A stretch of DNA of 64,000 nucleotides from Actinoplanes lobatus (GTDB lineage Bacteria; Actinomycetota; Actinomycetes; Mycobacteriales; Micromonosporaceae), in assembly GCF_014205215.1 (NCBI RefSeq), contig NZ_JACHNC010000001.1:4097001-4161000 (forward strand), read 5' to 3'. Every line of letters starts with the position of its first letter. Position 1 is the first letter of the stretch. The notes beneath the pieces were generated by a model. That model was given only the letters and a program-made list of their open reading frames with translations, did no database searches and was not told the DNA's origin. Of the stretch, positions 4,919-37,206 are shown one piece after another. A program made the translations under genes and the position numbers.

Positions 4919-6364
4919 TTAACGGGCGGCCGACAGGATGGCGCGGTTTCGGCCGGCGGCCTTGGCGGCGTACAGGGCCTCGTCGGCGTCGTGCAGCAGC
5001 GCCTCCGGGTCGGGGTCGACGGCGACGGCGGCGCCGATCGAGACGGTCACCGACAGCAGCTCGCCGCCGACGTCGACGGGGAGGCCGGCCATCTCCTCGC
5101 GGAGGCGCTCGGCGAGGGCGTAGAGCTCGCCGGGGCCGGTGTGCGGGGCCAGCACCACGAACTCCTCACCGCCGTAGCGGGCGATCACACCGCCGGCCCG
5201 GCTGCCGGCGGCCAGGCGCCGGGCCACCTCACGCAGGACCTGGTCGCCGGCCGGATGCCCGTACCCGTCGTTGACCTTCTTGAAGTGGTCGACGTCGATG
5301 ATCAGCAGGCCGACGCCGTGGCCGGCGCGGGCGGCCCGGCGGCACTCGACGGCCAGCGCCTGGGTGAAGTGCCGTCGGGTGTGCAGGCCGGTCAGGCCGT
5401 CCGTGACGGCGGCCCGCCGCTGGGCCGCGACCAGGCCGTACATCCGGGCGAGCACGAGCAGGAACATGACCGCGCAGGCCGCGCTGATCAGCGGCACGCT
5501 GACCGGTGTGCCGCGCAGCCACTGGATGAACTGGACGCCCGGCGCCATCAGCACGGCGATGGCGAGGACGCCGAGCCGGCCCGGTGACGCGTCCGGCAGG
5601 GCGGTGTCGCTGCGCTTGTCGAATCGGCGGATGCCGGGGTGCAGGGCGGCCATGCCGAGCAGCCCGAGCGAGATCATCCACATGGCGTCGAGGTACGCCT
5701 CGTCGACCGAGCTGCCGTCGGCGATGCCCTCCACCGCGTACGCCGTGTCCACGGCGAACATGAGGGTGAGGCTGCTGAGGATGAGCCAGAGCACCGGCCC
5801 ACGGTTGCCGGTGCCCATCACCAGACGAATCGCCAGGATCAACACCATCAGATCCAGGACCGGGTACGCCGACTGGGTCAGTTTCGCGTTGAGCGGCAGC
5901 GCCGAGTCGGAGGTCAGCGGCTGGAGCACGTAGATCCAGACGAGTAGGCCGGCGCTGATCGCCACGACCAGGGCGTCGATGCCGCCCGGCAGGTCCCAGC
6001 CGGGGGTGCGGCGCCGGATGAACACCACCACGGCGGCGCAGAGCAGCAGGTAGGAGGCGAAGTACACGAGGTCGGCCGGGGTGGGCTCGAGGAAATCGCC
6101 GAGCCAGTCGTCGCGCACCGTCATTCCGTCCGCGACGGCGTACACCACCTGGGCCGCGGCCAGCAGGAACCAGCCGGCCCGGTGCGGTGGCCGGTGCCGG
6201 TGCGTACCGATCAGCACGGCGACCGGCGTGCCGGCGCTGACCAGCATGTACGGCGCGACGGTAACCAGGTAGGAGGTGCCTGTGGTCCCGAAGCCCACCC
6301 GCAGGGCGACACAGACCACCATCACACCGGCCCAGGTGAGTCCAGCCCAGAGTTCTCGTCGCAC
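4919..6364 (-). CDS. Membrane-anchored diguanylate cyclase (GGDEF)
   Basis: A 481-residue protein. Residues 1-310 hold about nine or ten hydrophobic segments with no recognisable sensor fold. The C-terminal 160 residues are a GGDEF domain with signature RYGGEEF, IIDVDHFKKVNDGYGHPAGD for metal and substrate binding, and VTVSIGAA near the end. The intact GGEEF motif implies active synthesis of cyclic di-GMP from two GTP; I see no clear RxxD inhibitory site immediately before it. No EAL domain is present. The start is a GTG at 6364. The Nudix gene follows 10 bp downstream and the GH63-like gene is divergent. Confidence 0.9.
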   Translation of the reverse strand: MRRELWAGLTWAGVMVVCVALRVGFGTTGTSYLVTVAPYMLVSAGTPVAVLIGTHRHRPPHRAGWFLLAAAQVVYAVADGMTVRDDWLGDFLEPTPADLVYFASYLLLCAAVVVFIRRRTPGWDLPGGIDALVVAISAGLLVWIYVLQPLTSDSALPLNAKLTQSAYPVLDLMVLILAIRLVMGTGNRGPVLWLILSSLTLMFAVDTAYAVEGIADGSSVDEAYLDAMWMISLGLLGMAALHPGIRRFDKRSDTALPDASPGRLGVLAIAVLMAPGVQFIQWLRGTPVSVPLISAACAVMFLLVLARMYGLVAAQRRAAVTDGLTGLHTRRHFTQALAVECRRAARAGHGVGLLIIDVDHFKKVNDGYGHPAGDQVLREVARRLAAGSRAGGVIARYGGEEFVVLAPHTGPGELYALAERLREEMAGLPVDVGGELLSVTVSIGAAVAVDPDPEALLHDADEALYAAKAAGRNRAILSAAR

Positions 6365-6501
6365 GTCAGGAAGGATCCGGTGCCGGAGTTGCTCACCGGG
6401 TGCGGATTCGGGGGACCTCTGGTGCCGGCGTCCCGGGCCTTACATGTTTGACATATGAGCGTGACAGTCTCAGTGTGATCGACTCCGAAAGATGAATTCG
6501 G

Positions 6502-9147: not shown

Positions 9148-9212
9148 ACGCACGAAGGGCCGGTGGCCCAAGGTGAGGCTCTCGATCTCCTTGGACCACC
9201 GACACCTTCTCG

Positions 9213-11027
9213 CTACCCGGGGAGGGCCGGGCTAACCACGTCGGACAGAAGCGGCGGCAGAAGTTCGCGGAGCACGTCGACGCCGTCGCGGCTGAGGACG
9301 GACTCGGGGTGGAACTGGACGCCCGCGAAGCCGGCGCCGCGCAGCGCGTGCACCGTGCGGTCGGAAGGGTCGACGGCCAGTTCGGCCGGCCCGTACGGCG
9401 ACGCCGCCACCGGCTCGTCCGACACCGCCGAGAAGCTGGAGTAGAAGCCGACCCGCCGGACCGTCCCGAACAGGTCGACCTCCCGGGCCAGACCCTGGTA
9501 GGGCGAGTCCCGCCGGGCCAGCGACAGCCCCAGCAGCGAGGCCAGGATCTGCTGCCCGAGACAGACCGCGAACAGCGGCCGCCGCGCCTCGAGCGCCTCC
9601 CCGGCGAGCCGGTGCAGGGTCGCCATCTTGGGGTCGGCCAGGTTCGAGGGGTCGCCCGGGCCGGGACCGAACACCAGCAGGTCGCCCTCCGGCAGGGTGG
9701 TCACCGACGTCCACGGCAGCAGGGTGACCCGCAGGCCGAGGGCTTTGAGCTGGTGGGCGAGCATGGCGGTGAACGTGTCCTCGGCGTCGATGATCACCGC
9801 GTGCCGGCCGGCCAGTGACGGCACGGTCAGCGCGCCGGGCGCCCGGGAGTCGAGCCAGAACCGGGCCAGTTCGTCGTTGCGGGCGGCCAGCAGTTCGCGT
9901 ACCTCCGGTGTCTGCGCCGTACCCCGTACCGGAAGGGGTTTTGACGGAACCGCGCCCAGCGCGGAGAGCAGGCCGGACGCCTTGGTGTGGGTCTCCGCGA
10001 CCTCGCCCGCCGCTGTCGAATGGCGGACCAGCGTGGCACCGACCGGGACGCGCAGCGCGCCGTCGGGGGTGATCTCCGCGGTGCGGATGAGGATCGGCGC
10101 GTCCAGCGTCTGCCGGCCCTGCTCGTCGTGGTCGAGCAGGGCGAGCACGCCGGCGTAGTAGCGGCGGCCGCGGCGCTCGTGCCGGGCGATGACCCGGCAG
10201 GCGTTCTCGATCGGGCTGCCGGTGACGGTCGGCGCGAACATGGTCTCCCGCAGCACGTCCCGGACGTCCAGCGAACCGTGCCCGGCCAGGAGGTACTCGG
10301 TGTGGGTGAGGCGGGCCATCTCCTTGAGGTAGGGGCCGGCCACCTGGCCGCCGTGTTCGGCGACCGTGGCCATCATCTTGAGCTCCTCGTCGAGGACCAT
10401 GTAGAGCTCCTCGATCTCCTTCGGGTCGCGCAGGAAGTCGAGCAGGCCCGGGTAGCCGCCGTCGTTGCGGTAGGTGCCGCTGATCGGGTTCATCATGGTG
10501 ACCCCGTCGGTGACGCTGACGTGCCGTTCCGGGGTGGCGCCGACCAGGATCCGCTCCCCGGTGTCGACCAGGAACGTCCAGTAGGTGCCCTGTTCCCCGG
10601 TGAGCAGCCGGCCGAACGCGGCCCGCGCCGCGGCGAGCGGATCGCCCTCGACGGTGGCCTCGTAGACCCGGTGGATGACGAAGTTGGCGCCCTCGCCGTG
10701 CCCGATCTCGTCGCGCAGCACCTCCTCGACGATCCGGCCGTACTCGTCGTCGGACAGGTCGAAACCGCCGTCGCGCAGGGTCAGCGGACCGGGCGGGAAC
10801 GCGTCCAGGGGCTCTCGGCTGGTCGAGCGGACCAGCAGGCACTCCAGCGGGGCGCCGTCGTCGACGCAGTCGAAACCGCGTTCGCCGATCTGCCGGTAGG
10901 GGATCACCGCCAGCACCGGTGTGCCGGGATGCAGCGGGATGTCGGCGAGCGTGGCGACGGTGACGACGTCCCCGGTCAGTACCTCGACGTGGTCGGCGCC
11001 GTCACGGTGGAGCAGGGCGAAGGGCAT
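9213..11027 (-). CDS. trpEG: Fused anthranilate synthase (component I + glutamine amidotransferase)
   Basis: A 604-residue fusion. Residues 1-390 are a chorismate-utilising domain (PISGTYRNDGGYPG, PYLKEMARLTHTEY, FAPTVTGSPIENACRVI). Residues about 410-600 are a class I glutamine amidotransferase with oxyanion loop VFGPGPGDPSN, nucleophile Cys in LFAVCLGQQIL and His-Glu in QFHPESVLS. It makes anthranilate from chorismate and glutamine, the first step to tryptophan. The sequence is close to PhzE (aminodeoxyisochorismate synthase), but no phz genes are nearby and the leader upstream encodes tandem Trp codons, so a tryptophan role is favoured. The ATG at 11027 has an AGAGGA ribosome site; the extension to 11111 runs through the attenuator and is rejected. 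Confidence 0.85.
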   Translation of the reverse strand: MPFALLHRDGADHVEVLTGDVVTVATLADIPLHPGTPVLAVIPYRQIGERGFDCVDDGAPLECLLVRSTSREPLDAFPPGPLTLRDGGFDLSDDEYGRIVEEVLRDEIGHGEGANFVIHRVYEATVEGDPLAAARAAFGRLLTGEQGTYWTFLVDTGERILVGATPERHVSVTDGVTMMNPISGTYRNDGGYPGLLDFLRDPKEIEELYMVLDEELKMMATVAEHGGQVAGPYLKEMARLTHTEYLLAGHGSLDVRDVLRETMFAPTVTGSPIENACRVIARHERRGRRYYAGVLALLDHDEQGRQTLDAPILIRTAEITPDGALRVPVGATLVRHSTAAGEVAETHTKASGLLSALGAVPSKPLPVRGTAQTPEVRELLAARNDELARFWLDSRAPGALTVPSLAGRHAVIIDAEDTFTAMLAHQLKALGLRVTLLPWTSVTTLPEGDLLVFGPGPGDPSNLADPKMATLHRLAGEALEARRPLFAVCLGQQILASLLGLSLARRDSPYQGLAREVDLFGTVRRVGFYSSFSAVSDEPVAASPYGPAELAVDPSDRTVHALRGAGFAGVQFHPESVLSRDGVDVLRELLPPLLSDVVSPALPG

Positions 11028-11073
11028 CGGGTCCTCTTTCGGTCGAGGACCGCCGGCCGAGGGCCGGCCCACG

Positions 11074-11101
11074 AAAAACGGCCGCCTCGGAGAGGCGGCC
11101 G
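11074..11101 (-). terminator. trp attenuator terminator
   Basis: On the minus strand a 10-bp perfect GC-rich stem (11101-11092 with 11088-11079, 3-nt loop) is followed directly by five T. This is a classic intrinsic terminator between the leader peptide and trpEG. A competing 7-bp pairing exists: GGCGGCC just after the leader stop (11130-11124) is complementary to GGCCGCC in the 5' arm (11100-11094) and could act as antiterminator when ribosomes stall at the Trp codons. Confidence 0.88.
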
Positions 11102-11132
11102 CGGTGGTCACGCGCGGGAAAGGGGCCGCCGG

Positions 11133-11168
11133 TCAGGCGGGCCACCACATGGTCAATTTCGCGCGCAT
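11133..11168 (-). CDS. trpL: trp operon leader peptide
   Basis: An 11-codon ORF on the minus strand encodes MRAKLTMWWPA and stops at 11133. Two adjacent Trp codons lie three codons before the stop. It sits about 30 nt upstream of the attenuator hairpin and about 105 nt upstream of the trpEG start. Ribosome stalling at the Trp codons under tryptophan starvation should favour the antiterminator. No strong ribosome site precedes the ATG; the internal ATG immediately before the Trp pair could be used instead. Confidence 0.85.
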   Translation of the reverse strand: MRAKLTMWWPA

Positions 11169-11206
11169 GCCGGGAAGCTTACGGCCGGGCGGCCGGTCGC
11201 GCCAGA

Positions 11207-11237
11207 CCCGTCAGGCGTACGGCGTACGCCTGACGGG
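11207..11237 (-). terminator. 14-bp perfect inverted repeat after the small gene
   Basis: Arms 11207-11220 and 11224-11237 are perfectly complementary around a 3-nt loop. It lies 7 nt beyond the stop of the minus-strand small gene and about 40 nt before the trp leader. No T-tract follows. The likely role is a terminator insulating the trp leader from upstream transcription; an operator is possible. Confidence 0.6.
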
Positions 11238-11244
11238 CCGGCAC

Positions 11245-11478
11245 TCAGGCGGTGAAGGCGAGCCGGACGGCGTCCCGGGCCCAGTTCATCCGTCCGATGG
11301 CACAGTCCGGGTGCTCGCCGTACTCCTGGGCGACGATCTCGGCGCAGCCGGACTCGCCGAGCTGGTCGACCATGGTGGAAACGGCTGTCCGGATCACTTC
11401 CGGAGTCGGCTCCTGGGAGCGCTGCACGTATGAGGCGAAGAGCGCTTCACTCCGTACGTCGTCGATTACGGCGTTCAT
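11245..11478 (-). CDS. Small conserved-looking protein of unknown function
   Basis: A 77-residue acidic protein that I do not recognise. It has no membrane segment or signal peptide; predicted helices include PEVIRTAVSTMVDQLGESG and CAEIVAQEYGEHPDCAIGRM, with two Cys residues. A strong GGGAGG ribosome site sits 4 nt before the ATG at 11478, and codon use matches neighbours, so it is probably expressed. It is divergent from the receiver-domain gene and lies upstream of the trp leader on the same strand, separated by a 14-bp inverted repeat. The function cannot be inferred from context. Confidence 0.7.
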   Translation of the reverse strand: MNAVIDDVRSEALFASYVQRSQEPTPEVIRTAVSTMVDQLGESGCAEIVAQEYGEHPDCAIGRMNWARDAVRLAFTA

Positions 11479-11660
11479 CGTTCCTCCCAGTCGTTCGAGT
11501 TGCGCGGTGGTTGCTCTCGGTACAGCACACCGGCCGCGGGATGCATTGCCGGTCGCACCCGGGTTGCGGGAAGGTTGCAGACCGAACTTCCGAGAACTGC
11601 CTACATACCAGCTTTTATCGGTATAGCGTCCGAGCGCAAATCGAAGATCGGGGGAGCCGC

Positions 11661-12038
11661 GTGACGACCGTCCTGGTGGCCGACGACGACGCCGACATCC
11701 GTGACCTGGTGGCTCTCAAGCTGGAGCAGGCCGGGCTGGAGGTGCTCGCGGTCGGCGACGGGCAGATGGCGGTGGAGACGGCACGGGCCCGGCACCCCAC
11801 GCTGGCCGTGCTGGACGTGTCGATGCCGGGGCTCTCCGGCATCGACGTCTGCCGGATGCTGCGGGCGGATCCGGCGACCGCCGGCACGCTGATCATCATG
11901 CTCACCGCCCGGGTCCAGGAGCATGACGTGGAGGGCGGGTTCGGCGCCGGGGCCGACGACTACGTGACCAAGCCGTTCAGCCCGCGCGAGCTGGTCTCCC
12001 GGATCCAGGAGCTGCTCGCGCGGGCGGAACGTCAGTAG
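11661..12038 (+). CDS. Stand-alone response regulator receiver protein
   Basis: A 125-residue single receiver domain (CheY-like) with no output domain. The acidic pocket is VLVADDDADIRDL, the phospho-acceptor Asp lies in TLAVLDVSMPGLSGID, and the conserved Lys is in DDYVTKPFSPREL. A GTG start at 11661 follows GGGGGAGCC at good spacing; the upstream open frame to 11430 has no coding character. Such proteins relay phosphate or act by protein contacts. No kinase gene is adjacent. Its last 7 bases overlap the end of the convergent GH3 gene. Confidence 0.9.
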   Translation: MTTVLVADDDADIRDLVALKLEQAGLEVLAVGDGQMAVETARARHPTLAVLDVSMPGLSGIDVCRMLRADPATAGTLIIMLTARVQEHDVEGGFGAGADDYVTKPFSPRELVSRIQELLARAERQ

Positions 12039-14224
12039 TTGGCCGCGGCCACCAGCTTCTCCAGGTCACCGGCGCTCAGCGGGCTGCCCGGGAACGAGGC
12101 CAGCCGCGCCAGCGGCAGGCTGGCCAGCATCATCAGCATCTCCGGGTTGGCGGTCATCGCCGACATCGGGCCGTCGCCCGCCGCCTCCGCGAACGCCGCG
12201 CCCAGCACCTCGGCGCCGCGCGGGTCGGCGAACCACTCGCCGACACTGGACTCGGTGGTCAACGGCACCCGGTCCGGGTCGCCGGCCACGTGCACGGTCA
12301 CCGACGCCCGTACGTCCCGGGACGAGGCGCCCACCTCGATCAGGTACTCGCCGCCCTCGACGATCCACCGGCCCAGCCGGATGTCCCAGTAGGCCAGGTC
12401 GTCGCGGTCGACGGTCAGGACGACGTCGGCGGTGTCCCCGCCCTCGACCGGCACACTGGCGAACGCCTTCAGCTCCCGCGGCGCCCGCCGCACCCGCGAG
12501 CCGGGCAGGCTCACGTACACCTGCACCACCTCGCGCCCGTCGCGCGCGCCGGTGTTGGTCACCGGGACGCGGACCTCGACGCCGGTCGCCGTCGCGGTGG
12601 CGCGGGCCGCGCCGTAGCCGAAGGTGGTGTACGACAGCCCGAACCCGAACGGGTAGGCCACCTCCTGCCCGCGCGCGTCGAAGCCCCGGTACCCGACGTG
12701 CAGGCCCTCGCCGTACCGGACGTGGCCGTGCTCGCCCGGGAAGTCCAGGTGGGACGGGTGGTCGGCGAGCTTCACCGGGATCGTCTCGGCGAGCCGGCCG
12801 GACGGGTTGACCCGCCCGAACAGCACGTCGGCGACGGCGCTGCCGCCGGCCTGACCGAGCAGCCAGCCCTCGACCAGGGCGGGCACCTTCTCGTCCCACG
12901 GCCGGGTGGCGAGGACCGCGCCGTTGGAGAGCACCACGACGGTCCGCGGGTTGGCCGCCGCCACCCGCTCGATCAGGGCCACCTGGGTGGCCGGCAGGTC
13001 GATCGAGGTGCGGTCGGCGCCTTCGGTCTCGTGGACGCTGCCGGCGAAGACGATCGCCACGTCGGCGGCCTTCGCGACCGCCACGGCCTCGGCCAGCAGA
13101 CCCTCGTCCGCGTCACCCCGCACGGTGTAGCCGGCCGCGAACCGCACCTCGCCACCGGCCGCCGCGGTGATCTCGGTGAGCGCGTCGTCGAGCCGGGTCG
13201 GCGTGATCTGCGAGCTGCCGCCGCCCTGGTAGCGCGGGGTCCGCGCGAACTCGCCGATCACCGCGAGCGTCGACGAGGAGCCGAGCGGCAGCAGGTCACC
13301 CTCGTTCTTCAGCAGGACGATCGCCCGTCCGGCGATCTCCCGGGCCAGCGCGTGGTGCGCTTCGGCGTCATAGCCGCCGGCCGGTCGCTTCCCGGCCTTC
13401 ACGATCATTTCCCGTACGCGCTCCGCGCTCTGCCGCAGCAGAGCCGGGTCGAGGTCGCCGGACCCGACGGCCGCGACCAGAGCGGCGTCGCCGTCCGCGT
13501 CCGGCCCGGGCATGGTCAGGTCGAGCCCGGCCGCGACCGCCTTCACCCGGTCCACCACGGCGCCCCAGTCCGACACGACCAGGCCCTCGAAGCCCCACTC
13601 GCCGCGCAGCACCTCGGTGAGCAGCCAGTGGTGCTCGCTCGCGTACACCCCGTTGACCCGGTTGTAGGCGCACATCACGGTCCACGGCTGGGCCCGGGTG
13701 ACCACCCGCTGGAAGGCCCGCAGGTACATCTCCCGCAGCGTGCGCTCGTCGACGTCGGCGCTGATCCGCATCCGTTCGGTCTCCTGGCTGTTCACCGCGA
13801 AGTGCTTCAGCGACGCGCCGACGCCCCGGCTCTGGAGGCCGCGCACCCATTCGGTGGCCAGCATCCCGGTCAGGATCGGGTCCTCGGAGAAGTACTCGAA
13901 GTTGCGGCCGCCCAGCGGGGTGCGCTTCAGGTTGACGCCCGGCCCGAGCAGCACCGCCACGTCCTGCGCCCGGCACTCGTCGCCGAGCGCCTCGCCCATC
14001 CGGCGCAGCAGCTCCGGATCCCAGGTGGAGGCGCTGGCCACGGCCGGCGGGAAGCAGGTGGCGGGCACCCCGGCCAGCAGGTCACCGCCGGTCGCCTGCA
14101 TGCGCACCCCGTGCGGGCCATCGGTGACGGTCACCGCGGGGAGGCCCGCCGACTCGACCGGCGAGGTGTGCCAGAAGTCGCCGCCGCTGGTGATCGCCGC
14201 CTGTTCCGAGGTGCTGAGGTCCAT
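12032..14224 (-). CDS. GH3 family beta-glucosidase
   Basis: A 730-residue cytoplasmic enzyme (no signal peptide). The N-terminal GH3 barrel (about 20-310) contains TVTDGPHGVRMQ, LGPGVNLKRTPLGGRNFEYF, the KHFAVNSQE substrate loop and the nucleophile Asp in GLVVSDWGAV. The alpha/beta sandwich domain (about 320-520) and a C-terminal fibronectin type III-like domain (about 560-630, VTNTGARDGREVVQVYVS) complete the usual architecture. It should hydrolyse beta-glucosides or other short beta-linked sugars taken up by the cell. The start is the ATG at 14224. It is divergent from a TetR gene across a 98-bp region with a palindrome, suggesting local control. Confidence 0.93.
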   Translation of the reverse strand: MDLSTSEQAAITSGGDFWHTSPVESAGLPAVTVTDGPHGVRMQATGGDLLAGVPATCFPPAVASASTWDPELLRRMGEALGDECRAQDVAVLLGPGVNLKRTPLGGRNFEYFSEDPILTGMLATEWVRGLQSRGVGASLKHFAVNSQETERMRISADVDERTLREMYLRAFQRVVTRAQPWTVMCAYNRVNGVYASEHHWLLTEVLRGEWGFEGLVVSDWGAVVDRVKAVAAGLDLTMPGPDADGDAALVAAVGSGDLDPALLRQSAERVREMIVKAGKRPAGGYDAEAHHALAREIAGRAIVLLKNEGDLLPLGSSSTLAVIGEFARTPRYQGGGSSQITPTRLDDALTEITAAAGGEVRFAAGYTVRGDADEGLLAEAVAVAKAADVAIVFAGSVHETEGADRTSIDLPATQVALIERVAAANPRTVVVLSNGAVLATRPWDEKVPALVEGWLLGQAGGSAVADVLFGRVNPSGRLAETIPVKLADHPSHLDFPGEHGHVRYGEGLHVGYRGFDARGQEVAYPFGFGLSYTTFGYGAARATATATGVEVRVPVTNTGARDGREVVQVYVSLPGSRVRRAPRELKAFASVPVEGGDTADVVLTVDRDDLAYWDIRLGRWIVEGGEYLIEVGASSRDVRASVTVHVAGDPDRVPLTTESSVGEWFADPRGAEVLGAAFAEAAGDGPMSAMTANPEMLMMLASLPLARLASFPGSPLSAGDLEKLVAAANY

Positions 14225-29111: not shown

Positions 29112-29999
29112 TCAGCGCACCTCCCTGAGGAAGTCCGCCAGGGTGCGGCGCGGGGTCCAGCCCTGGGCCCGGGCCCGGCCGACGTCCAGGATCACCGCGT
29201 TGGTGAGCTGTTCCACGGCGTAGCGGGTCAGCACCGGTGGCCGCCGGGTGACGCGGGCCAGGGTGGTCGCCATGGTCGCGGCGGCGGTCGCCACGGGGAT
29301 CGGCAGATGGCGGACGCGGACGCCGCAGACCGCCTCGACGACCCGGTCGCGCTGATAGGGCCCGGCGTCCGCGATGTTGTAGGCCGCCGAGGGCCAGCCG
29401 GCGGCGGCCAGGCAGGCGTCGGCCAGGTTCTCCACCGCGGTCAGGCTGAGCGGGACGTCCGGGCCGGGGAGCAGCGCCCGCCCGCCGCGCACCACGCGCC
29501 GCAGCCGCGGCAGCAGGTGCGGGTCGCCGTGACCGTAGACGGCCCGGGGCCGCAGGACCACCGCGCCGGCCGCCAGGGCGAGGCGTTCTCCGGCCGCCTT
29601 GGTCCGGCCGTAGGCGGTCGTCCCGGCCAGCGGATGGTCCTCGCGGATCGGTTCCGGTCCGGCCGGGGCGTAGACGCTCGCGCTGCTCACCCACACGACC
29701 GTCCGCGTCCCGGCGGCCGCGAGGAGACGGGCCGCGCCGTCCACGTTCACCGCCCGGAAGGCGGCTTCGGCGACGCGGCCGGGCGGCGGGTCACCCACGG
29801 CGGCGGCGAGATGCAGCACGACGTCGGTCCCGGTCAGATCGGGCGGGGTACGGCGGGAAGCATCCCAATACCGGAATTCCCCCACCGGGCCGGGCCGTCG
29901 CCCGAGACAGACCACATCGGCCCCCGCCGCGGCGGCCGTACGAGCCACCACACCCCCGCAGAACCCGCTCGCCCCGGTGACCGCGATCCGCGCCGTCAC
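29112..29999 (-). CDS. NAD(P)-dependent epimerase/dehydratase, OleD/3beta-HSD-like
   Basis: A 295-residue extended short-chain dehydrogenase. The Rossmann motif is VTGASGFCGG at 7-16, the catalytic Ser lies in VWVSSASVYAP, and the YxxxK pair is in YGRTKAAGE. The best family match is the 3beta-hydroxysteroid dehydrogenase/OleD type, which reduces 2-alkyl-3-keto acids in olefin and beta-lactone pathways; sugar epimerases are the main alternative. It is the last gene of the six-gene operon and its start overlaps the P450 stop by 4 nt. Together with the ketosynthase and ligase it supports a lipid-condensation pathway. Confidence 0.8.
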   Translation of the reverse strand: MTARIAVTGASGFCGGVVARTAAAAGADVVCLGRRPGPVGEFRYWDASRRTPPDLTGTDVVLHLAAAVGDPPPGRVAEAAFRAVNVDGAARLLAAAGTRTVVWVSSASVYAPAGPEPIREDHPLAGTTAYGRTKAAGERLALAAGAVVLRPRAVYGHGDPHLLPRLRRVVRGGRALLPGPDVPLSLTAVENLADACLAAAGWPSAAYNIADAGPYQRDRVVEAVCGVRVRHLPIPVATAAATMATTLARVTRRPPVLTRYAVEQLTNAVILDVGRARAQGWTPRRTLADFLREVR

Positions 30000-31093
30000 C
30001 GGGCCGCCACGATCAGGCTGGACCAGCTGGGCAGGGCGCTGCGGCGGTCGGCGCGGGCCGCCCGTACCTCGGGGCGGTAGCGGGCCAGCGCCGTGAGGGT
30101 GTCGGTGAGCTGGAGCCGGGCCAGGCGCGCGCCGGGGCAGGCGTGCGGACCGGCGCCGAAGACCAGCTGGGCGATCCGGGACGGCGCCGGGTCGGTGGGA
30201 TCGGGGTCGCGGTGGTGTGCGCCGGCCGCGTGCCGCGCCACCAGGATCAGCCGGTCACCGGCATCGACCGGGCAGCCGCCGACGACACCGCCGGCCGCCG
30301 CGACCCGGGGCAGCAGCGGGGTCGCCGCGGTCACCCGCAGCAGTTCGGCGGTCAGGGCCCCGGGGGCGGACCCGGCGTACGCCCAGAGATCCGCGTCGGC
30401 GCACCAGGCCACCGCGCGCGGCACCCCGGCGACGGTCGTGTTGATCGCGGCCACCGCCAGCATCGCCGCCAGCCCGTCCCCGGGAGGCGAGCCGGCTGGG
30501 GTGAGCAGGGCGTTCAGGCGGGCCGCGGCGCGGTGGGCGGCCCGGCGGTGGTGCGGGAGGGTGAGGCCGGGCAGGTGTTCGCGGGCGGCGGCCGCGGCGG
30601 CGGTGCGGGCCGCCGCGGCGAGGTCGCGGCCGTCCACGTCGACGCCGAGCAGGGCGGCCGCCGTGGTGCCGGAGAGTTCGGCGGCCACGTCCACCAGGTC
30701 GATCGTCCGGCCGTCGGCGAGTGGGGCCAGGCGGCGTTCGAGGACCGCGAGCCAGATCGGGCGCAGCCGGTCCACCCCGTCCGCGCCGAGCGACTCGGCG
30801 AGGGAGCGGCGGGAGCCTCGGTGGTCGTCGCCCTCCTGGTCGAACAGCAGGCCGCCGCCGGCCAGCCGCCCGGCCGCCCCGCCCGTGGTGCCCTCCGCGG
30901 TCCGGTCCAGCGGGACGCGGGTGAGACCGTCCAGGTAGGCCGTGGGGGAGTTGGCGATCACCGTCCCGCCGAGCCGGAGCGCCGCCCGGCGCCGGGTGGC
31001 CGCGAGCAGCGTGAACAGCACCGGGTGGGCGCGCAGATAGACCATCCGGTCCCGGCGCCGCGCCCGCCGCTGCCCGAGGTCGGCGCCGCTCAT
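29996..31093 (-). CDS. Cytochrome P450
   Basis: A 365-residue P450, shorter than the usual 400 or so. The haem-binding loop is FGAGPHACPGARLARLQL with the Cys ligand, the K-helix ExxR is ELLR, and the I-helix region is AAINTTVAGVPRAV, which lacks a canonical (A/G)GxxT. It should oxidise a hydrophobic intermediate of the operon product using external ferredoxin and reductase, which are not encoded here. ATG at 31093 overlaps the stop of a 26-codon linker ORF; the stop overlaps the SDR start. A missing N-terminal segment might explain the short length. Confidence 0.88.
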   Translation of the reverse strand: MSGADLGQRRARRRDRMVYLRAHPVLFTLLAATRRRAALRLGGTVIANSPTAYLDGLTRVPLDRTAEGTTGGAAGRLAGGGLLFDQEGDDHRGSRRSLAESLGADGVDRLRPIWLAVLERRLAPLADGRTIDLVDVAAELSGTTAAALLGVDVDGRDLAAAARTAAAAAAREHLPGLTLPHHRRAAHRAAARLNALLTPAGSPPGDGLAAMLAVAAINTTVAGVPRAVAWCADADLWAYAGSAPGALTAELLRVTAATPLLPRVAAAGGVVGGCPVDAGDRLILVARHAAGAHHRDPDPTDPAPSRIAQLVFGAGPHACPGARLARLQLTDTLTALARYRPEVRAARADRRSALPSWSSLIVAAR

Positions 31094-31170
31094 CGCGCCA
31101 CCTCCGCTGCGCTCCGGCGTCGCAATGAGTTCATGACTGAGCTGAATGATTCGCTCGCAAGCTCGCTCAT
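31090..31170 (-). CDS. 26-residue linker ORF between GT2 and P450
   Basis: On the minus strand an ATG overlaps the upstream GT2 stop (ATGA, 31170-31167), and 26 codons later the TGA overlaps the P450 ATG (ATGA, 31093-31090). The product starts MSELASES and ends RRRSAAEVAR. The DNA contains GCGAGCTTGCGAGCGAATCA and CGGAGCGCAGCGGAG, motifs that I believe recur between genes in Micromonosporaceae. It may serve to carry ribosomes across the gap rather than make a functional peptide. Confidence 0.5.
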   Translation of the reverse strand: MSELASESFSSVMNSLRRRSAAEVAR

Positions 31171-31925
31171 CGGACGTGGACCTCCGTCGAGGTGGGTGGG
31201 CGCCAGCGGCGGTCCCAGTACCAGAGGAGGGTGCGCCGGGCGCCCCACGCGCGCAGGCGGCGCAGGCTGGCCTCGACGACCACGTTCTCGGCCCGGACGA
31301 TGCGGCTGGTCTCGCGGCGGGCGCGGTTGAGCATGGTGACGTCCTCGGACCCGTCCTCCAGGCGTTCCCGGGCGGTGCCGCCGCAGCGCTGGTAGAGGTC
31401 GGCGGTCACGGCCAGGTTGTGTCCGTGGATCAGGACGTACGGGGTGAGGTACGCCGGATCCCGGTGCGCCTTGCGGTAGCGGCCGTAGAGGGCGGCCAGC
31501 CGGACCGCCGCCGGGAAGACGTGGCGTTCCGCCCAGGTGGGGTTCTCGTCGCGGCGGGGGACGCTGCGCCCGCAGACCAGTTCCGCTCCGGCGGTCAGGT
31601 GGGCGCGGGCGGTCGCCACCCAGTTCGGGGCCGGGCGGCAGTCGGCGTCGGTACGGGCCAGCAGTGTCGCGCCGGTGGCGATGGCGTGCCGGAAACCGGT
31701 GTCGGCCGCGGTTCCGGCACCGGGCGACGATTCGGTGACCACCTCCACCGGGAACGGCGCGCCCACCGCGAACCGGCGGACCACCCCGGCGGTGCCGTCG
31801 GTGGACGCGTTGTCGACCACGATCAGCCGGAAGTCCCGGTCGGTCTGGGCGGCGAGCGCCTCCAGTACGACGCCGATCGTGGCGGCCTCGTCGAAGGCGG
31901 GCACGATCACCGCGAGCTCGCTCAC
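31167..31925 (-). CDS. GT2 family glycosyltransferase (second in operon)
   Basis: A 252-residue cytoplasmic GT-A enzyme. It has AVIVPAFDEAATIGVVLEAL at the N-terminus, the nucleotide-binding VVDNASTDGTA and the metal-binding RTDADCRP, and ends in basic residues without clear membrane spans. It is a paralogue of the GT2 at 33520-34257 (shared DTGFRHAI, LLARTDADC and TSRIV-type segments). Family members move a sugar from a nucleotide or polyprenyl donor; here the acceptor may be a hydroxyl or acid on a lipid made by the operon. The GTG start at 31925 overlaps the stop of a 23-residue linker ORF. Confidence 0.85.
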   Translation of the reverse strand: MSELAVIVPAFDEAATIGVVLEALAAQTDRDFRLIVVDNASTDGTAGVVRRFAVGAPFPVEVVTESSPGAGTAADTGFRHAIATGATLLARTDADCRPAPNWVATARAHLTAGAELVCGRSVPRRDENPTWAERHVFPAAVRLAALYGRYRKAHRDPAYLTPYVLIHGHNLAVTADLYQRCGGTARERLEDGSEDVTMLNRARRETSRIVRAENVVVEASLRRLRAWGARRTLLWYWDRRWRPPTSTEVHVR

Positions 31926-31993
31926 CGGGCGTCCTCGGTGGACCCGTGCGGTGCTCCGTGAAAAGCGAGGACGGGCAGGAAGCGGGTGCTCAT
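31922..31993 (-). CDS. 23-residue linker ORF between ligase and GT2
   Basis: The ATG (31993-31991) overlaps the stop of the ligase gene as ATGA, and its TGA overlaps the GT2 start as GTGA. The peptide begins MSTRFLPVLAFHG and ends GSTEDAR. It fills the only gap between the two genes. A coupling role is favoured over a function for the peptide, but neither is proven. Confidence 0.45.
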   Translation of the reverse strand: MSTRFLPVLAFHGAPHGSTEDAR

Positions 31994-33447
31994 CCCCGTA
32001 CCCCAGGAGGTTTTCTCTGATGTGGAATGCCGGCGGCGAGCGACGCGGCCGCGCCCCGGTCGGGTTTGCGGGAGCGGCCGGCCAGCGGGACCGGCGCGAA
32101 GAGCACGTGGTCCGGGCGGGCCGCGCCCATCCGGCGGAGCGGCTCGCGCAGCGCGGCCTCGACCGCGGGGCGGCTGGCGCCCGGCGCCGTCTCGACCACC
32201 GCGACCACGTGTTCGTCGCCGTCGCCGGCGGGCACGCCGACCAGGACCGCGAGGGCGACGCCGGGCACGTGCAGGGCCGGCTCGTAGAGGCCGGGATAGA
32301 TGTTCTCGGCCCGCCGCAGGATCATGTCCTTGCAGCGCCCGGCCAGGACGACGCGGCGGCCCGTCACCGCCGCCACATCCCCGGTGGCAACCCACTCGTG
32401 CGGCTCCGCGCCGAGGTAGCGGTCGCAGACGCCGGCCCCGGCGAGCAGCAGCTGCCCGGTGTCGTCGAGGCGGGCCCGCACCCCGGGCAGCAGGTCACCG
32501 ACCAGGTCGCCGTCGCCGTCGTAGGCGGCCTTCTCGCCGGACGCGACCGCCGCCGCGGGGAAGACCTCGGTGAGCGCGTAGACACCCCACGCCTCGTCGG
32601 CGCCGGCCGCGCGGACCCGGGCGAGCAGGTTCGCCGAGACCGGGGCGGAGCCGCTGTAGACCCGGCCGGTGAACGGTACGCCGGCGTCGAGGGCGGCCCG
32701 GATCTGCGGCGGCGTCAGGTAGGTGGCCTGCGGTTTCAGGCCGGTGACCTGCTTCGCGAGGGCGCGTGGGCGGCGGGCCGGCGCGGCGACCGGCGCTCCG
32801 GCGGCCAGCGACGGGACCATGACGAAGAAGGTGCCGCCGAGCACCGGGATCCCCGGGCTCGGCCGGACCAGGTCGTGTACGGCGCGCAGGCCGGTGCCGA
32901 GGCCGGAGCGGGTGTGCACCACGGCCCGGGGGCTGCTGGTCGTACCGGAGGTGAAGATGATGACCGCGTCGCCGTCGCCGTCGTAGGCCTTGGGGACGGG
33001 ACCCGTTTTCACCACGAGCGAGGGAGCGTTGCCGGGCAGGCGCGGGCCCACGGTCGCTACCGGCGACATATCAGAAAAATCAGGCAATGATAGGCCGATT
33101 CGCCGCGCCAACGGGGCCGCCCAGCCCGCCACCGCCTGCGCCGCGGCATCCGCGATGATCAACGCGGGCGGGGCGAGCGCCAAACGCGCCCGGAGCACAT
33201 CCGGTCCCGCCGTCGGATCCAGCAGGGCCACCCGGACCCCGAGACGGTAGGCCGCCAGCACCATGGCCAGCGCCCGCGGCCCCGGACGGATCGCGATCCC
33301 GAGCGTGTCACCCACGGTGAGACCCCGCGCGTGCAGGGCGGTCGCGTAACGGTCCCGCAGCACGGCCAGATCACCACGGGTCACCCGGCCGACGAGTGCG
33401 GGCCGGTCGTCGCCGGCCCGCAGGCCCGCGCTCAGCTCATCGAGCAA
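31990..33447 (-). CDS. Adenylate-forming acyl ligase (ANL superfamily, possibly OleC-like)
   Basis: A 485-residue ligase. The P-loop is AVIIFTSGTTSSPRAVVHT near residue 165, motif A5 is WGVYALTEVFP, the TGD motif is WVATGDVAAV, and the C-terminal domain has RRAENIYPGLYEPAL with the catalytic-type Lys in GRSRKPDRGA. It activates a carboxylate as acyl-AMP. In olefin and beta-lactone clusters this position is taken by OleC, which closes a beta-hydroxy acid to a beta-lactone. I do not see the OleC-specific C-terminus, so a CoA ligase or an AMP ligase for another acid is possible. TTG start at 33447 with GAGGA upstream. Confidence 0.8.
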   Translation of the reverse strand: MLDELSAGLRAGDDRPALVGRVTRGDLAVLRDRYATALHARGLTVGDTLGIAIRPGPRALAMVLAAYRLGVRVALLDPTAGPDVLRARLALAPPALIIADAAAQAVAGWAAPLARRIGLSLPDFSDMSPVATVGPRLPGNAPSLVVKTGPVPKAYDGDGDAVIIFTSGTTSSPRAVVHTRSGLGTGLRAVHDLVRPSPGIPVLGGTFFVMVPSLAAGAPVAAPARRPRALAKQVTGLKPQATYLTPPQIRAALDAGVPFTGRVYSGSAPVSANLLARVRAAGADEAWGVYALTEVFPAAAVASGEKAAYDGDGDLVGDLLPGVRARLDDTGQLLLAGAGVCDRYLGAEPHEWVATGDVAAVTGRRVVLAGRCKDMILRRAENIYPGLYEPALHVPGVALAVLVGVPAGDGDEHVVAVVETAPGASRPAVEAALREPLRRMGAARPDHVLFAPVPLAGRSRKPDRGAAASLAAGIPHQRKPPGVRG

Positions 33448-33523
33448 GGGGGATCCTCAACATGGTTCTCATCGGGGCCGGGTTCTCATCGGGGCCGGGT
33501 TCTCATCGGGGGCGGGTTCTCAT
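33437..33523 (-). repeat. 17-bp tandem repeat forming chained micro-ORFs before the ligase gene
   Basis: On the minus strand, ATGAGAACCCGGCCCCG is repeated with 17-bp period after the GT2 stop. ATGs lie at 33523, 33506, 33489 and 33472. The first three each encode MRTRPR and stop in a TGA that overlaps the next ATG; the fourth is an 11-codon ORF that overlaps the TTG start of the ligase (33447). The first ATG overlaps the GT2 stop, so a terminating ribosome meets an unbroken series of restart sites. Confidence 0.85.
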
Positions 33524-34257
33524 CGGGGGTCGGGGGAGAGCGGGCCGCTGCCCCGGTCGAGATACCAGCGGGCGGTCCGCAGCACCCCGTACGCGCGCAG
33601 CCGCCGGGTCGAGTTCTCCACCACCATCGACCGGCTGTGCACGATCGATGAGGTGGTCCGGCGGACCCGGTTGAGGAAGAGCCGGTCGGTCGGCGACGGC
33701 CGCCGCGGCATCCCCCCGCAGGCCTCGTAGAGCGCTGCCGTGATCGCCATGTTGTTCCCGGCGTGCATCCGGTACGGCGCCAGGCTCCCGTCCCCCCGGT
33801 GCGCCGGCCGGATCCGCCCGAACGTCGCGGCCAGCGTCACGAGCAGCGCGAACACCGTCCGCCCGGCCGGACCGTGTTCGTCATGCCGGGCGGTGATCCG
33901 GCCGCACGCCATCCCGGCGCCGCCGTCCAGTGCGGCCCGGGCCGCCGCCACCCAACCGGGCCGGGGCAGGCAGTCGGCATCCGTACGCGCGATCAGGACC
34001 GCCCCGCCCCCGATGGCGTGCCGGAACCCGGTGTCGACCGCGCAGCCGACCCCCTTCTCCGGCTCGACGATCACGTGCACCGGGAACGGGGCGCACGGCG
34101 CGAACGCCCGGACCGCCTCGACCGTCGTGTCGGTGGAGCCGTTGTCGACCACGAGCAGGGTGAAGTCCGTGTCGGTCTGGGCGGCGAGGGCGTACAGGGT
34201 GGCGCTGATCCGGGCGGTCTCGTTGTAGGCGGGCACCACGACCCAGAGGCGGGTCAT
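33520..34257 (-). CDS. GT2 family glycosyltransferase (first in operon)
   Basis: A 245-residue GT-A glycosyltransferase starting MTRLWVVVPAYNETARISAT, with VVDNGSTDTTVEAV for nucleotide binding and ARTDADCLPRPGWV for the metal site. It is a close relative of the second GT2 in this operon, consistent with gene duplication and two sequential sugar transfers. No membrane span. The ATG at 34257 overlaps the stop of the ketosynthase gene by 4 nt. The last codons belong to the 17-bp repeat described separately. Confidence 0.85.
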   Translation of the reverse strand: MTRLWVVVPAYNETARISATLYALAAQTDTDFTLLVVDNGSTDTTVEAVRAFAPCAPFPVHVIVEPEKGVGCAVDTGFRHAIGGGAVLIARTDADCLPRPGWVAAARAALDGGAGMACGRITARHDEHGPAGRTVFALLVTLAATFGRIRPAHRGDGSLAPYRMHAGNNMAITAALYEACGGMPRRPSPTDRLFLNRVRRTTSSIVHSRSMVVENSTRRLRAYGVLRTARWYLDRGSGPLSPDPR

Positions 34258-35231
34258 CGTTCCCAGACCATGGTCATGATGCTGACGCCGCCGCCGAGGC
34301 CCATGAACAGCACCCGATCCCCGGGCGACAAATACGGAAATGTCCTGTTTAACTGGACACCGAGCGTGGCGCTGGCCATGTTCCCCAGCGAGGTGACGGT
34401 GACCTCCAGCCGATCCCGCGGCACCCCGGTCACCTCGACGAACCGCTCCAGGTACGGCAACGTCACCTGATGCACCAGGATCTTCGCGTAGTCGGTGAAC
34501 TCGAACCCGGTCCGCGCCCGCACCCGGTCCAGGATGCTGGCCCCGATCTTCTCGAACACACCGCGCAGCTTGTGCCCGTCACCGGTGAAGTACGAGTACT
34601 CGTCCCCGCGCGGATGCCGTGACCCGCCGCCCGGGATGCCACCGACCGTCCAGTGCTCGGAGAACGTCTCGGTGTCGACGTCCAGGATGCCGCCACGATC
34701 CACCGGCTCGACCACCACGGCCGCCCCGGCGTCGCCGAACGTGAACCCGGCGAACGACCGTCGCGCCTCCGCCATGTCCGCCACCCGCGGCCGCATCACC
34801 CGGCTCGGCGTCTCCCCGGTCACCACGAGCGCCCGCCGGGACCGCCCGGCCAGGATCATCGACCGGGCCAGGTCGACGCCGTTGACGAAGCTGTTGCAGG
34901 CGTTCGTGACGTCCAGGGCGTGCGCCCGGCTGCCGAGGGCGTCCTGAAGGATGTGCGCGGTGGCCGGCTCCACCATGTCCCGGCTGGCCGAGGCGAACAG
35001 CAGCAGGTCGATGTCGAGCGGGTCCAGCTCGGCGGAGTCCAGGGCGGCGCGGGCGGCGTGCAGGCCGAGGGTGGAGGCGTACTCGCCGTCGCCCGCGATG
35101 CGCCGCCGCTCGATGCCGGTGAGCCGGGTGAGCAGGCCGCGGGGCAGCCGGCCGATGCCGTCCTGGAGCTCGGCGGTACCGACCTCACGCTCCGGCAGAT
35201 GCGCGCCCACCCCGGTGATCCCTACCCGCAC
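34254..35231 (-). CDS. 3-oxoacyl-ACP synthase III / OleA-like ketosynthase
   Basis: A 325-residue thiolase-fold condensing enzyme. The active-site Cys is in DVTNACNSFVNGVDL (about 119), the His in KILVHQVTLPYLERF and the Asn in TSLGNMASATLGVQLN, giving the Cys-His-Asn triad of FabH and OleA. It should join two acyl thioesters to a beta-keto product. OleA homologues do this head-to-head with two long acyl-CoAs; FabH uses malonyl-ACP. The neighbouring ligase and OleD-like reductase favour the first. It is the first gene of the operon with a GTG start at 35231 and is divergent from a hybrid kinase with 43 bp between. Confidence 0.85.
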   Translation of the reverse strand: MRVGITGVGAHLPEREVGTAELQDGIGRLPRGLLTRLTGIERRRIAGDGEYASTLGLHAARAALDSAELDPLDIDLLLFASASRDMVEPATAHILQDALGSRAHALDVTNACNSFVNGVDLARSMILAGRSRRALVVTGETPSRVMRPRVADMAEARRSFAGFTFGDAGAAVVVEPVDRGGILDVDTETFSEHWTVGGIPGGGSRHPRGDEYSYFTGDGHKLRGVFEKIGASILDRVRARTGFEFTDYAKILVHQVTLPYLERFVEVTGVPRDRLEVTVTSLGNMASATLGVQLNRTFPYLSPGDRVLFMGLGGGVSIMTMVWER

Positions 35232-35274: not shown

Positions 35275-37206
35275 GTGTCCGATAGGACGACCGTGCCGGA
35301 ACAGCTCTTCCTGCTGGGAAACCTGGGCACCATGATCACCTATGCGGCGATCGCGGTGGCCATCGCGGTGCCCCTGGCCCGGGCGGGTCAACTGCGCGCC
35401 AACCGGCTCGCGGTCGCCACCGCGCTCATCTTCCTCACCTCGGCGATTGGGCACGGGCTGCACGCGTACCTGGCGTTCGCCAACCTGGACCGGGAGGAAC
35501 ACTCCGTGGCGATCGGCTGGCTCTGGGCGCTGGCCTGGTGGAACGTGTTCACCGCGGCGGTCGGCGTGTACTACTGGACGGTCCGCCAGAGACACGCGCC
35601 GCTGCGCGGCGCGATCTACACCGGCCCGCACCAGCAGCGGCTGCTCGACGAGGCGGACGCGCACCGGGCCACCCTGGAGGCGGTCGTCGAGCACACCGAC
35701 GACGCGATCATCGGGCTGACCCTGGACGGCATCGTCACCGCGTGGAACGGCGGCGCCGAACGGCTCTTCGGCTACCCCGCCGCGGAGATCACCGGGCGGT
35801 CGGTGGCCCTCCTCGCCGACGAGGAGGGCGGGGTCGAGCAGGCGGAGATCCGGCGCCGGATCATCGACCAGCGGGAGCGGGGCGTCACCTACGAGACGCG
35901 GCGCTTCGCCAAGGACGGCACACCGATCGAGGTGTCGCTGAGCGTGGGGGCGATCCGGGACCGTACCGGCCGGCCGGCCGGCATCTCGGTGGTGGCCCGG
36001 GACATCACCGCCGTCAAGGAGGCCGCCGAACGCCGCCGGGTCGTCGAGGAGCGCACCCACCAGGCGCAGCGCATGGAGAGCCTGGGCAAACTGGCCGGCG
36101 GGGTGGCGCACGACTTCAACAACATCCTGGCGATCATCGTGAACTACACCGACTTCGCGGTCGAGGAGGCGGCCGGCAACGAGTCGCTGGAGACCGACCT
36201 CAAGCATGTGCGCAGCGCCGCCGACCGGGCCATCAACCTGACCCGCCAGCTGCTCACCTTCACCCGCGGCGACACCATCCAGCCGCGGGACGTCAACCTC
36301 AACGCGGCCCTCGCCGAGGTCCAGGCCATGCTCGAGCGGACCATCGGCGAGCACATCAACCTGATCACCGTGCCGTCCGCCGAGCCGGTCGTGGTGCACG
36401 CCGACCCCGGCCAGATCCAGCAGGTGCTGCTCAACCTGGCCATCAACGCCCGTGACGCGATGCCGGACGGCGGAACCCTGGTACTGGAGGCCAACGCCGC
36501 CGCCATCGACGGCGACGAGCTCGACATGCAGCCGTCGCTGCCCGCCGGAACCTACGCCCGCTTGCTGGTCAGCGACACCGGCGAGGGCATGACCGCGGAC
36601 GTGGCGGCGCACATCTTCGAACCCTTCTACACCACCAAGCCGCGCGGTAAGGGCACCGGGCTCGGCCTGTCCACCGTCTACGGCATCGTCTCGGAGGCCG
36701 GCGGCAGCCTCAACGTCTACTCCGAACCCGGCGTCGGCACGACCTTCCGCATCTACCTGCCGATGGTCAGGGTCCCCGGCACGGCCACCCCCGCGGCATC
36801 ACGCCAGGACGATCCGCCGCCCGGATCCGGCCAGACCGTCCTGGTGGTCGAGGACGAGCCCGCCCTGGCCCGGGTGGTCACCCGGATCCTGGCCGGCGCC
36901 GGCTACCACGTCCTCACCGCCACCGACGGCCGCCAGGCCCTCGCCCTCTTCCACCAGCACGACTGCGACGCCCTCCTGACCGACGTGATCATGCCCGAGA
37001 TGTCCGGCCGCCGGCTCGCCGAGATCATCCACGGCACGCACCCCGACCTGCCGGTCCTCTACATGTCCGGCTACAGCAACGGCCTGCTCGGCACCACCCA
37101 CGTGCTCGACGGCGACATCGCCTTCATCGAGAAGCCCTTCACCGCGAACGACCTCCTCCACAAGATCGCCGAGGTGGTCCCCACGGCCGTCCGCCCCTCC
37201 CGCTGA
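35275..37206 (+). CDS. Hybrid histidine kinase (TM-PAS-HisKA-HATPase-REC)
   Basis: A 643-residue protein. Residues 1-110 hold three hydrophobic segments; about 125-245 a PAS domain (AVVEHTDDAIIGLTLDG, LFGYPAAEITGRS); about 265-330 HisKA with the phospho-His in GGVAHDFNN; about 370-495 HATPase with NLAINARDA, DTGEGM and GLGLSTVYGIV; about 520-635 a receiver with phospho-Asp in ALLTDVIMPEMSG and Lys in FIEKPF. The H-box type and C-terminal receiver are typical of kinases controlling stress or development. No separate regulator gene is adjacent. The start GTG at 35275 has a poor ribosome site; a GTG at 35293 is an alternative. Confidence 0.9.
   Translation: MSDRTTVPEQLFLLGNLGTMITYAAIAVAIAVPLARAGQLRANRLAVATALIFLTSAIGHGLHAYLAFANLDREEHSVAIGWLWALAWWNVFTAAVGVYYWTVRQRHAPLRGAIYTGPHQQRLLDEADAHRATLEAVVEHTDDAIIGLTLDGIVTAWNGGAERLFGYPAAEITGRSVALLADEEGGVEQAEIRRRIIDQRERGVTYETRRFAKDGTPIEVSLSVGAIRDRTGRPAGISVVARDITAVKEAAERRRVVEERTHQAQRMESLGKLAGGVAHDFNNILAIIVNYTDFAVEEAAGNESLETDLKHVRSAADRAINLTRQLLTFTRGDTIQPRDVNLNAALAEVQAMLERTIGEHINLITVPSAEPVVVHADPGQIQQVLLNLAINARDAMPDGGTLVLEANAAAIDGDELDMQPSLPAGTYARLLVSDTGEGMTADVAAHIFEPFYTTKPRGKGTGLGLSTVYGIVSEAGGSLNVYSEPGVGTTFRIYLPMVRVPGTATPAASRQDDPPPGSGQTVLVVEDEPALARVVTRILAGAGYHVLTATDGRQALALFHQHDCDALLTDVIMPEMSGRRLAEIIHGTHPDLPVLYMSGYSNGLLGTTHVLDGDIAFIEKPFTANDLLHKIAEVVPTAVRPSR

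Follow-up and report, generated by a model that had tools for sequence, protein, structure and literature searches.

A conserved ole-like operon of Actinoplanes lobatus, predicted to make a glycosylated head-to-head lipid and possibly a beta-lactone

Lipstatin, from which a lipase-inhibiting drug derives, is among the beta-lactones made by ole-type genes (PMC7064751, 2020, mBio). A region of Actinoplanes atraurantiacus described there encodes OleA, a glycosyltransferase, OleC, a cytochrome P450 and OleD in a genome with no oleB, and a hydroxylated, glycosylated beta-lactone was proposed as the product; the OleA protein is active on p-nitrophenyl hexanoate (PMC7064751). Here, a related operon is analyzed in a stretch of 64,000 nucleotides (hereafter the window) from the 10.4-Mb genome of Actinoplanes lobatus: six co-directed minus-strand genes at 29112-35231, in the order ketosynthase III (KS), family 2 glycosyltransferase (GT2a), ANL ligase, second family 2 glycosyltransferase (GT2b), P450 and short-chain dehydrogenase/reductase (SDR). 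A first-pass annotation, made from the DNA letters alone, had proposed exactly this operon with a paralogous GT2 pair, and all its open reading frames, strands and domains are confirmed: the operon is real, conserved and was correctly read in outline. The same annotation knew of no characterized cluster with this gene set, which holds in the strict sense, but the set had been described and the same kind of product proposed (PMC7064751). A sister strain's version of the gene set has already been published; no further publication on it was found by title or abstract start, and others may exist.

The A. atraurantiacus cluster, matched to locus L054 by species and the form of the strain name, has the same core in the same order. 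Its KS, GT2a, ligase, P450 and SDR are 70, 76, 68, 57 and 63% identical to those of the window, where GT2b and, ahead of the P450 gene, a 77-bp repeat are additional. With the oleABCD olefin operon, the window shares an OleA-type KS, an ANL ligase that groups with OleC in the trees and an OleD-like SDR, but it has no OleB, its ligase lies outside the OleC clade, and a P450 and GT2 enzymes are added. Lipstatin-type clusters combine a KS pair, named LstA/LstB, with a nonribosomal peptide synthetase (NRPS); the label is used here for an active KS beside a partner that lacks Cys, His and Asn (4/4 partners), rather than for a match to a named lipstatin gene. Common to these clusters and the window are an OleA-type KS, a ligase that probably sits in the slot of OleC, an OleD-like reductase and the lack of OleB, but the window operon has one KS instead of an active and a catalytically dead copy and no NRPS, with sugar transferases instead of a condensation-type/NRPS protein. 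A second, lipstatin-like cluster is present elsewhere in the A. lobatus genome (L162, G000:C1:4520000-4539999, 6003-11920): it encodes an OleA-type KS, a KS partner without Cys, His and Asn, an OleC, an OleD-like SDR and a protein with no Pfam match whose sequence shares 46% identity with the N-terminal region of the NRPS-like protein of L042, a hybrid locus described below.

We see an even chance that the product of the operon is a glycosylated lipid built by head-to-head joining of fatty acids, with the ligase in OleC's place most likely closing a beta-lactone. In the proposed pathway, the OleA-type KS would form a 2-alkyl-3-keto acid by non-decarboxylative condensation of two acyl-CoAs, and the OleD-like SDR would reduce the ketone; the P450 would hydroxylate one chain, and one or two GT2 enzymes would glycosylate the new hydroxyl. 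The ligase, probably a distant relative of OleC, would adenylate the beta-hydroxy acid, most likely closing it to a beta-lactone. With OleB missing, the lactone would escape decarboxylation.

Chance association of the six genes is excluded because they are collinear in 22 loci besides the window (type I, KS-GT-ligase-(GT)-P450-SDR). In the 10 type I loci with all six genes, 31/50 junctions are 4-bp overlaps. KS, ligase and P450 are present in all 22 loci, SDR in 21, GT2a in 21 (L036 is the locus without it) and GT2b in 13; the P450 of L055 is cut by the contig end, ahead of any SDR, and that of L056 was aligned in two pieces. Because GT2b occurs in only 13/22 loci, the conserved unit is a five-gene core with an optional second GT2. 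In L033 (8475-10061) and L035 (8985-10427), a BrkB (PF03631) membrane domain is fused to GT2b.

A second architecture (type II, KS-GT-P450-ligase-SDR) is found at 16 loci, 15 of them distinct: L044 and L067, on contigs of equal length and with equal matches, appear to be one locus. Its hosts include Actinomadura, Planomonospora, Sphaerisporangium, Hamadaea, Catellatospora, Amycolatopsis, Actinomycetospora and a Gemmatimonadaceae metagenome-assembled genome; at L071 and L073, no KS was found in the DNA stretch examined. One type II cluster (L045) has a TnpB-like protein with a Cas12f1-like TNB domain (5493-6950) between the divergent P450 gene and the KS gene. Within the family, the KS is matched at E <= 1e-40 in 49/150 genomes, 38 of them (A. 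lobatus included) at no less than 66% identity and 11 at 44-47%. The ligase is matched at E <= 1e-60 in 59/67 genomes of the genus and at E <= 1e-40 in 23/394 genomes of the class, 8 of the latter coming from one genus at 66-68%. Among the matches listed, its closest named relatives are from Actinoplanes siamensis (78%) and A. regularis (77%), and matches at 60-66% are from Streptomyces, Kitasatospora and Phycicoccus.

Assignment of the KS to the OleA type is supported because it has the Cys/His/Asn triad (C112, H254, N284) and the OleA glutamate (E88), and forms a clade with KSs of OleB/OleC/OleD clusters. In a profile of 12 KSs, E88 aligns with the glutamate of OleA (3row) located 26 residues before the active-site Cys, the residue numbered Glu117 in the literature. 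In a 40-row alignment, Glu occupies this position in 37/37 OleA-type rows and in none of the three FabH-type KSs of A. lobatus (Q, C, Q). The KS tree, which contains 40 of 59 KS rows, with three of the seven A. lobatus KS III matches as FabH-type rows and L006, which had no usable match, left out, joins the KSs of both architectures and those of L166, L167 and L173 in one clade (98/95). The clusters of these three loci also encode OleC, OleD and an OleB-type hydrolase. Outside the clade, where long branches meet, are the lipstatin-type KSs and those of L164, L165 and L171, also found beside OleB, OleC and OleD. An ordinary FabH, which the first-pass annotation had set against its own reading, is rejected for this KS by the OleA glutamate and by tree position, apart from the FabH-type KSs of the same genome. 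As a side observation, the ole-type genes of L166, L167 and L173 adjoin very large open reading frames; the one scanned (L167) encodes a polyketide synthase.

Two trees (the first built from 59 of 78 extracted ligases, the second from 61 of those 78 and a set of 86) gather the window-type ligases of both architectures (25 and 11 rows) into a single clade (100/100) next to OleC and OleBC fusions, and both trees split this assemblage from other ANL enzymes (15 and 38) at 100/99; the OleBC label of L144-L161 reflects an OleB-like stretch found in each by tblastn. A grouping with CoA ligases, which the early annotation had held to be adverse in the case of aryl-CoA ligases, is not supported: an approximately unbiased (AU) test in which the ligases are held with ten acyl-CoA-ligase-like rows, aryl-CoA ligases not being singled out, rejects it (p 0.014) and with it the acyl-CoA ligase reading. 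Motifs set the ligases apart as well. In motif A8, background rows have Gly in 83/85 and Glu or Asp in 79/85; type I ligases have Ala and Leu, respectively, in 23/23, type II ligases keep the Gly in 3/16 and have the Leu in 15/16, and OleC rows have Gly in 5/13 (a gappy column) and Q, P or R for Glu in 13/13. In motif A10, background rows have GK in 79/84 with an aligned Lys, and OleC/OleBC rows have RH[NA][SA]K in 20/20, with N in 18. An Arg near the A10 lysine was considered as a joint mark of OleC and the ligase and dropped: an ungapped check reveals a one-residue offset (RHN.K vs GR..K). No OleC structure is named among the 60 of 95 PDB rows listed.

Modules are naturally swapped between clusters. 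L042, from the same family, has a type I KS and P450 (65 and 61% identical to those of the window, in the same direction), the KS nesting within the type I clade; it differs from the window by an OleC-family ligase (485 bits against the OleC profile; 559.7 against PRK09274, cut-off 478), an OleD-like SDR (215 bits), an NRPS and no GT match within the 18 kb examined. In the Nocardia loci L059 and L060, lipstatin-type KS pairs are accompanied by a GT2 and by a ligase of type II; L070 shares this arrangement, but only a 68-residue piece of its first KS was found. Such swaps are most simply read as the ligase and OleC occupying one slot, and the ligase probably fills the place of OleC in the window. 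The NRPS-like protein at the end of the L042 cluster (9996-13013, 1005 aa, with A and T domains by Pfam) makes that locus a candidate for an aminoacylated beta-lactone.

A number of results weigh against a lactone-forming ole-type pathway. No NCBIfam profile reaches its cut-off for the KS, the highest-scoring being PRK09352, a generic model for KAS III (156.7 bits against a cut-off of 249). The KS also fails a published OleA search pattern, EPxx[AS]x(14,18)DxxNACL (PMC7158056), at the last residue only (NACN); the pattern is a search filter, and the KSs of the OleB-bearing L166, L167 and L173 fail it as well. Purified A. atraurantiacus OleA, obtained as little and precipitating protein, was unreactive with every acyl-CoA tested (PMC7064751). 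The ligase scores 46.4 bits against the OleC profile NF045786, the cut-off of which (900) is reached in 0/246 genomes; the OleC of A. lobatus encoded in L162 scores 469 bits and passes PRK09274. RH[NA][SA]K is found in 0/42 window-type ligases (two of these rows are the same locus), with GR..K instead in 42/42, and an AU test in which the ligases are held with four NRPS-type rows does not reject that grouping (p 0.127). The SDR has the OleD model NF042422 as its best match at only 60.6 bits (cut-off 580); other SDRs score 154 (type II), 215 (L042 and L162), 358 (L167) and 336 (L173), none above 580. Neither reduction nor glycosylation is universal: no SDR match was found in Nocardia L059, L060 and L070, and L036 has no GT.

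The oleA-oleC-oleD logic of the first-pass annotation therefore stands in part, with OleA and OleD upheld by residues, tree and best profile, but with no profile at its cut-off and a ligase that fails both the profile and the motif of OleC. That annotation had itself doubted the C-terminal OleC signature, and rightly so: it is missing, yet the ligase groups with OleC in the trees. Profile and motif reject membership in OleC; judged from sequence, the ligase is probably related to OleC without belonging to it.

A ligase that does not close a lactone is the most serious alternative, possible in our view though not what we would expect: the enzyme would activate a 3-hydroxy acid, or else a starter acid, for a transfer step, giving an open-chain glycosylated hydroxy-acid lipid as the product. 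Replacement of the A8 Gly and Glu/Asp by Ala and Leu in every type I ligase speaks against it, as do the swaps that place the ligase in OleC's slot and the rejected grouping with acyl-CoA-ligase-like rows; the missing OleC signature, the ligase's own A10 motif and the low OleC score are in its favor, the BrkB-GT2b fusions would fit a membrane or exported glycolipid, and most genomes of the genus carry the ligase.

The lack of OleB, asserted at first pass, is borne out. A Pfam scan of the genes finds none in the operon, and a single query, the OleB-type hydrolase of L167, has 0 matches in the A. lobatus genome at E <= 1e-10; across 26 genomes, the same query also has 0 matches in G140 and G129 and finds relatives of varied strength in the other 23. 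No OleB match lies near L042, L059, L060, L070, L162, L168 or L169. One may ask whether the P450 replaces OleB, with oxidative decarboxylation of the hydroxy acid or lactone giving an alkene-type product. Motifs of the P450 and the GTs were examined in 16 rows of type I, L042 among them, and 5 of type II; the 8 named loci of type I do not enter this sample. The I-helix acid, which is lost in some non-classical P450s, is replaced by Asn in 14 and Thr in 2 of the 16 type I rows and, together with the missing OleB, suits such a role. By contrast, 5/5 type II P450s have a normal acid-alcohol pair with Glu as the acid, L042, in which this type of P450 accompanies OleC, OleD and an NRPS, better suits hydroxylation followed by acylation, and a hydrocarbon product would leave the glycosyltransferases without a role; such a replacement of OleB is improbable. 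GT2a keeps its DAD motif and has [RI]PSPTDR for the C-terminal ED pair in 14/14 type I copies examined.

The P450 is still less likely to be a heme-free glycosyltransferase activator of the EryCII type: the L042 P450 has TIGR04515 (P450-derived glycosyltransferase activator) as its top-scoring NCBIfam model (45 bits, cut-off 343), but the heme Cys and ExxR are kept in 21/21 rows, L042 has the P450 without a GT match, and the known activators, to our knowledge, serve GT1 enzymes. Equally hard to credit is a side operon for fatty acids or polyketides that is led by an ordinary FabH and includes an aryl- or acyl-CoA ligase, a reading that can draw on the generic KAS III model as top KS hit and on PqsD and a FabH as the best single-sequence PDB matches, but conflicts with the OleA glutamate, the KS and ligase trees and OleD as the best SDR model.

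Features of the operon and their positions in the window
Feature	Position	Strand	Evidence and remarks
KS III, OleA type (supported)	34254..35231	-	Pfam ACP_syn_III and its C domain; residues, tree
GT2a, family 2 glycosyltransferase	33520..34257	-	Pfam Glycos_transf_2; 4-base overlap with KS gene
ANL ligase, TTG start	31990..33447	-	Pfam AMP-binding; clade grouping with OleC; A10 Lys461 in GRSRK
GT2b, GT2a paralogue (54% identical), optional	31167..31925	-	Pfam Glycos_transf_2
Cytochrome P450	29996..31093	-	Pfam p450 25.9 bits, cut-off 22.8; heme Cys319, ExxR (E250)
Extended SDR	29112..29999	-	Pfam Epimerase/3Beta_HSD; best NCBIfam model OleD
77-bp MIRU-like repeat, GT2b stop/P450 start junction	31094..31170	-	Carries 26-codon open reading frame
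17-bp tandem array, 3.8 copies, 97% matches, GT2a/ligase junction	33464..33528	.	

The TTG start of the ligase is paralleled in several relatives, which likewise open with MLDEL or MLxxL. A hybrid histidine kinase gene (35275-37206) lies upstream of the operon in divergent orientation, and a protein with no Pfam match and ctaD lie downstream. Beyond the window, 5 loci also have ctaD beside the cluster, and the kinases recur in 4 and 6; because these flank genes are kept beside the cluster almost exclusively in close relatives, they are excluded from the system. A scan for promoters and terminators returned 0 promoter-like sites and 1 terminator-like site, no different from shuffles.

The junction between GT2b and P450, a 4-bp overlap in 7 of the other 10 six-gene loci, is opened in the window to a 73-bp gap, a net gain of 77 bp, by a repeat that resembles the mycobacterial interspersed repetitive units (MIRUs) (PMC12548453). 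The A. lobatus genome has 53 matching units at 40 places, the window's included, in arrays of 1 to 3 tandem units. At 21/21 places examined, the repeat opens with ATGA and ends directly 5' of an ATG; on its 3' side no stop interrupts the frame before the examined DNA ends at 20/21 places, and on its 5' side a frame of at least 67 codons runs into the TGA of ATGA at 19/20. The 26-codon open reading frame (MSELASES...) of the window repeat is also present in 24/27 start matches of the copies examined, and its peptide bears no sign of selection, differences being spread evenly over codon positions. Beyond this genome, only 5 and 8 diverged copies were found in 2/14 other genomes of the genus, and none in 10 other genomes; a literature search found no report of this repeat in Actinoplanes.

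To the gene set already described, this analysis adds the spread of the ligase in the genus, the second architecture, type I P450s without the I-helix acid and the 77-bp operon-splitting repeat. Glycosylated beta-lactones from ole-type genes are apparently only a prediction so far; as most genomes of the genus have the ligase, many strains are open to a search for the product, and the natural swaps between the ligase and OleC make it testable which features let an ANL enzyme close a lactone. More tentatively, the ligase, with an A10 motif of its own, may found a third branch, next to OleC and the OleBC fusions, of ANL enzymes that form beta-lactones. This branch could serve a glycosylated head-to-head lipid that is nearly core to Actinoplanes-type bacteria and mostly inherited vertically, the role of which might then be physiological, in the membrane, spore or cell surface, rather than that of a sporadic antibiotic.

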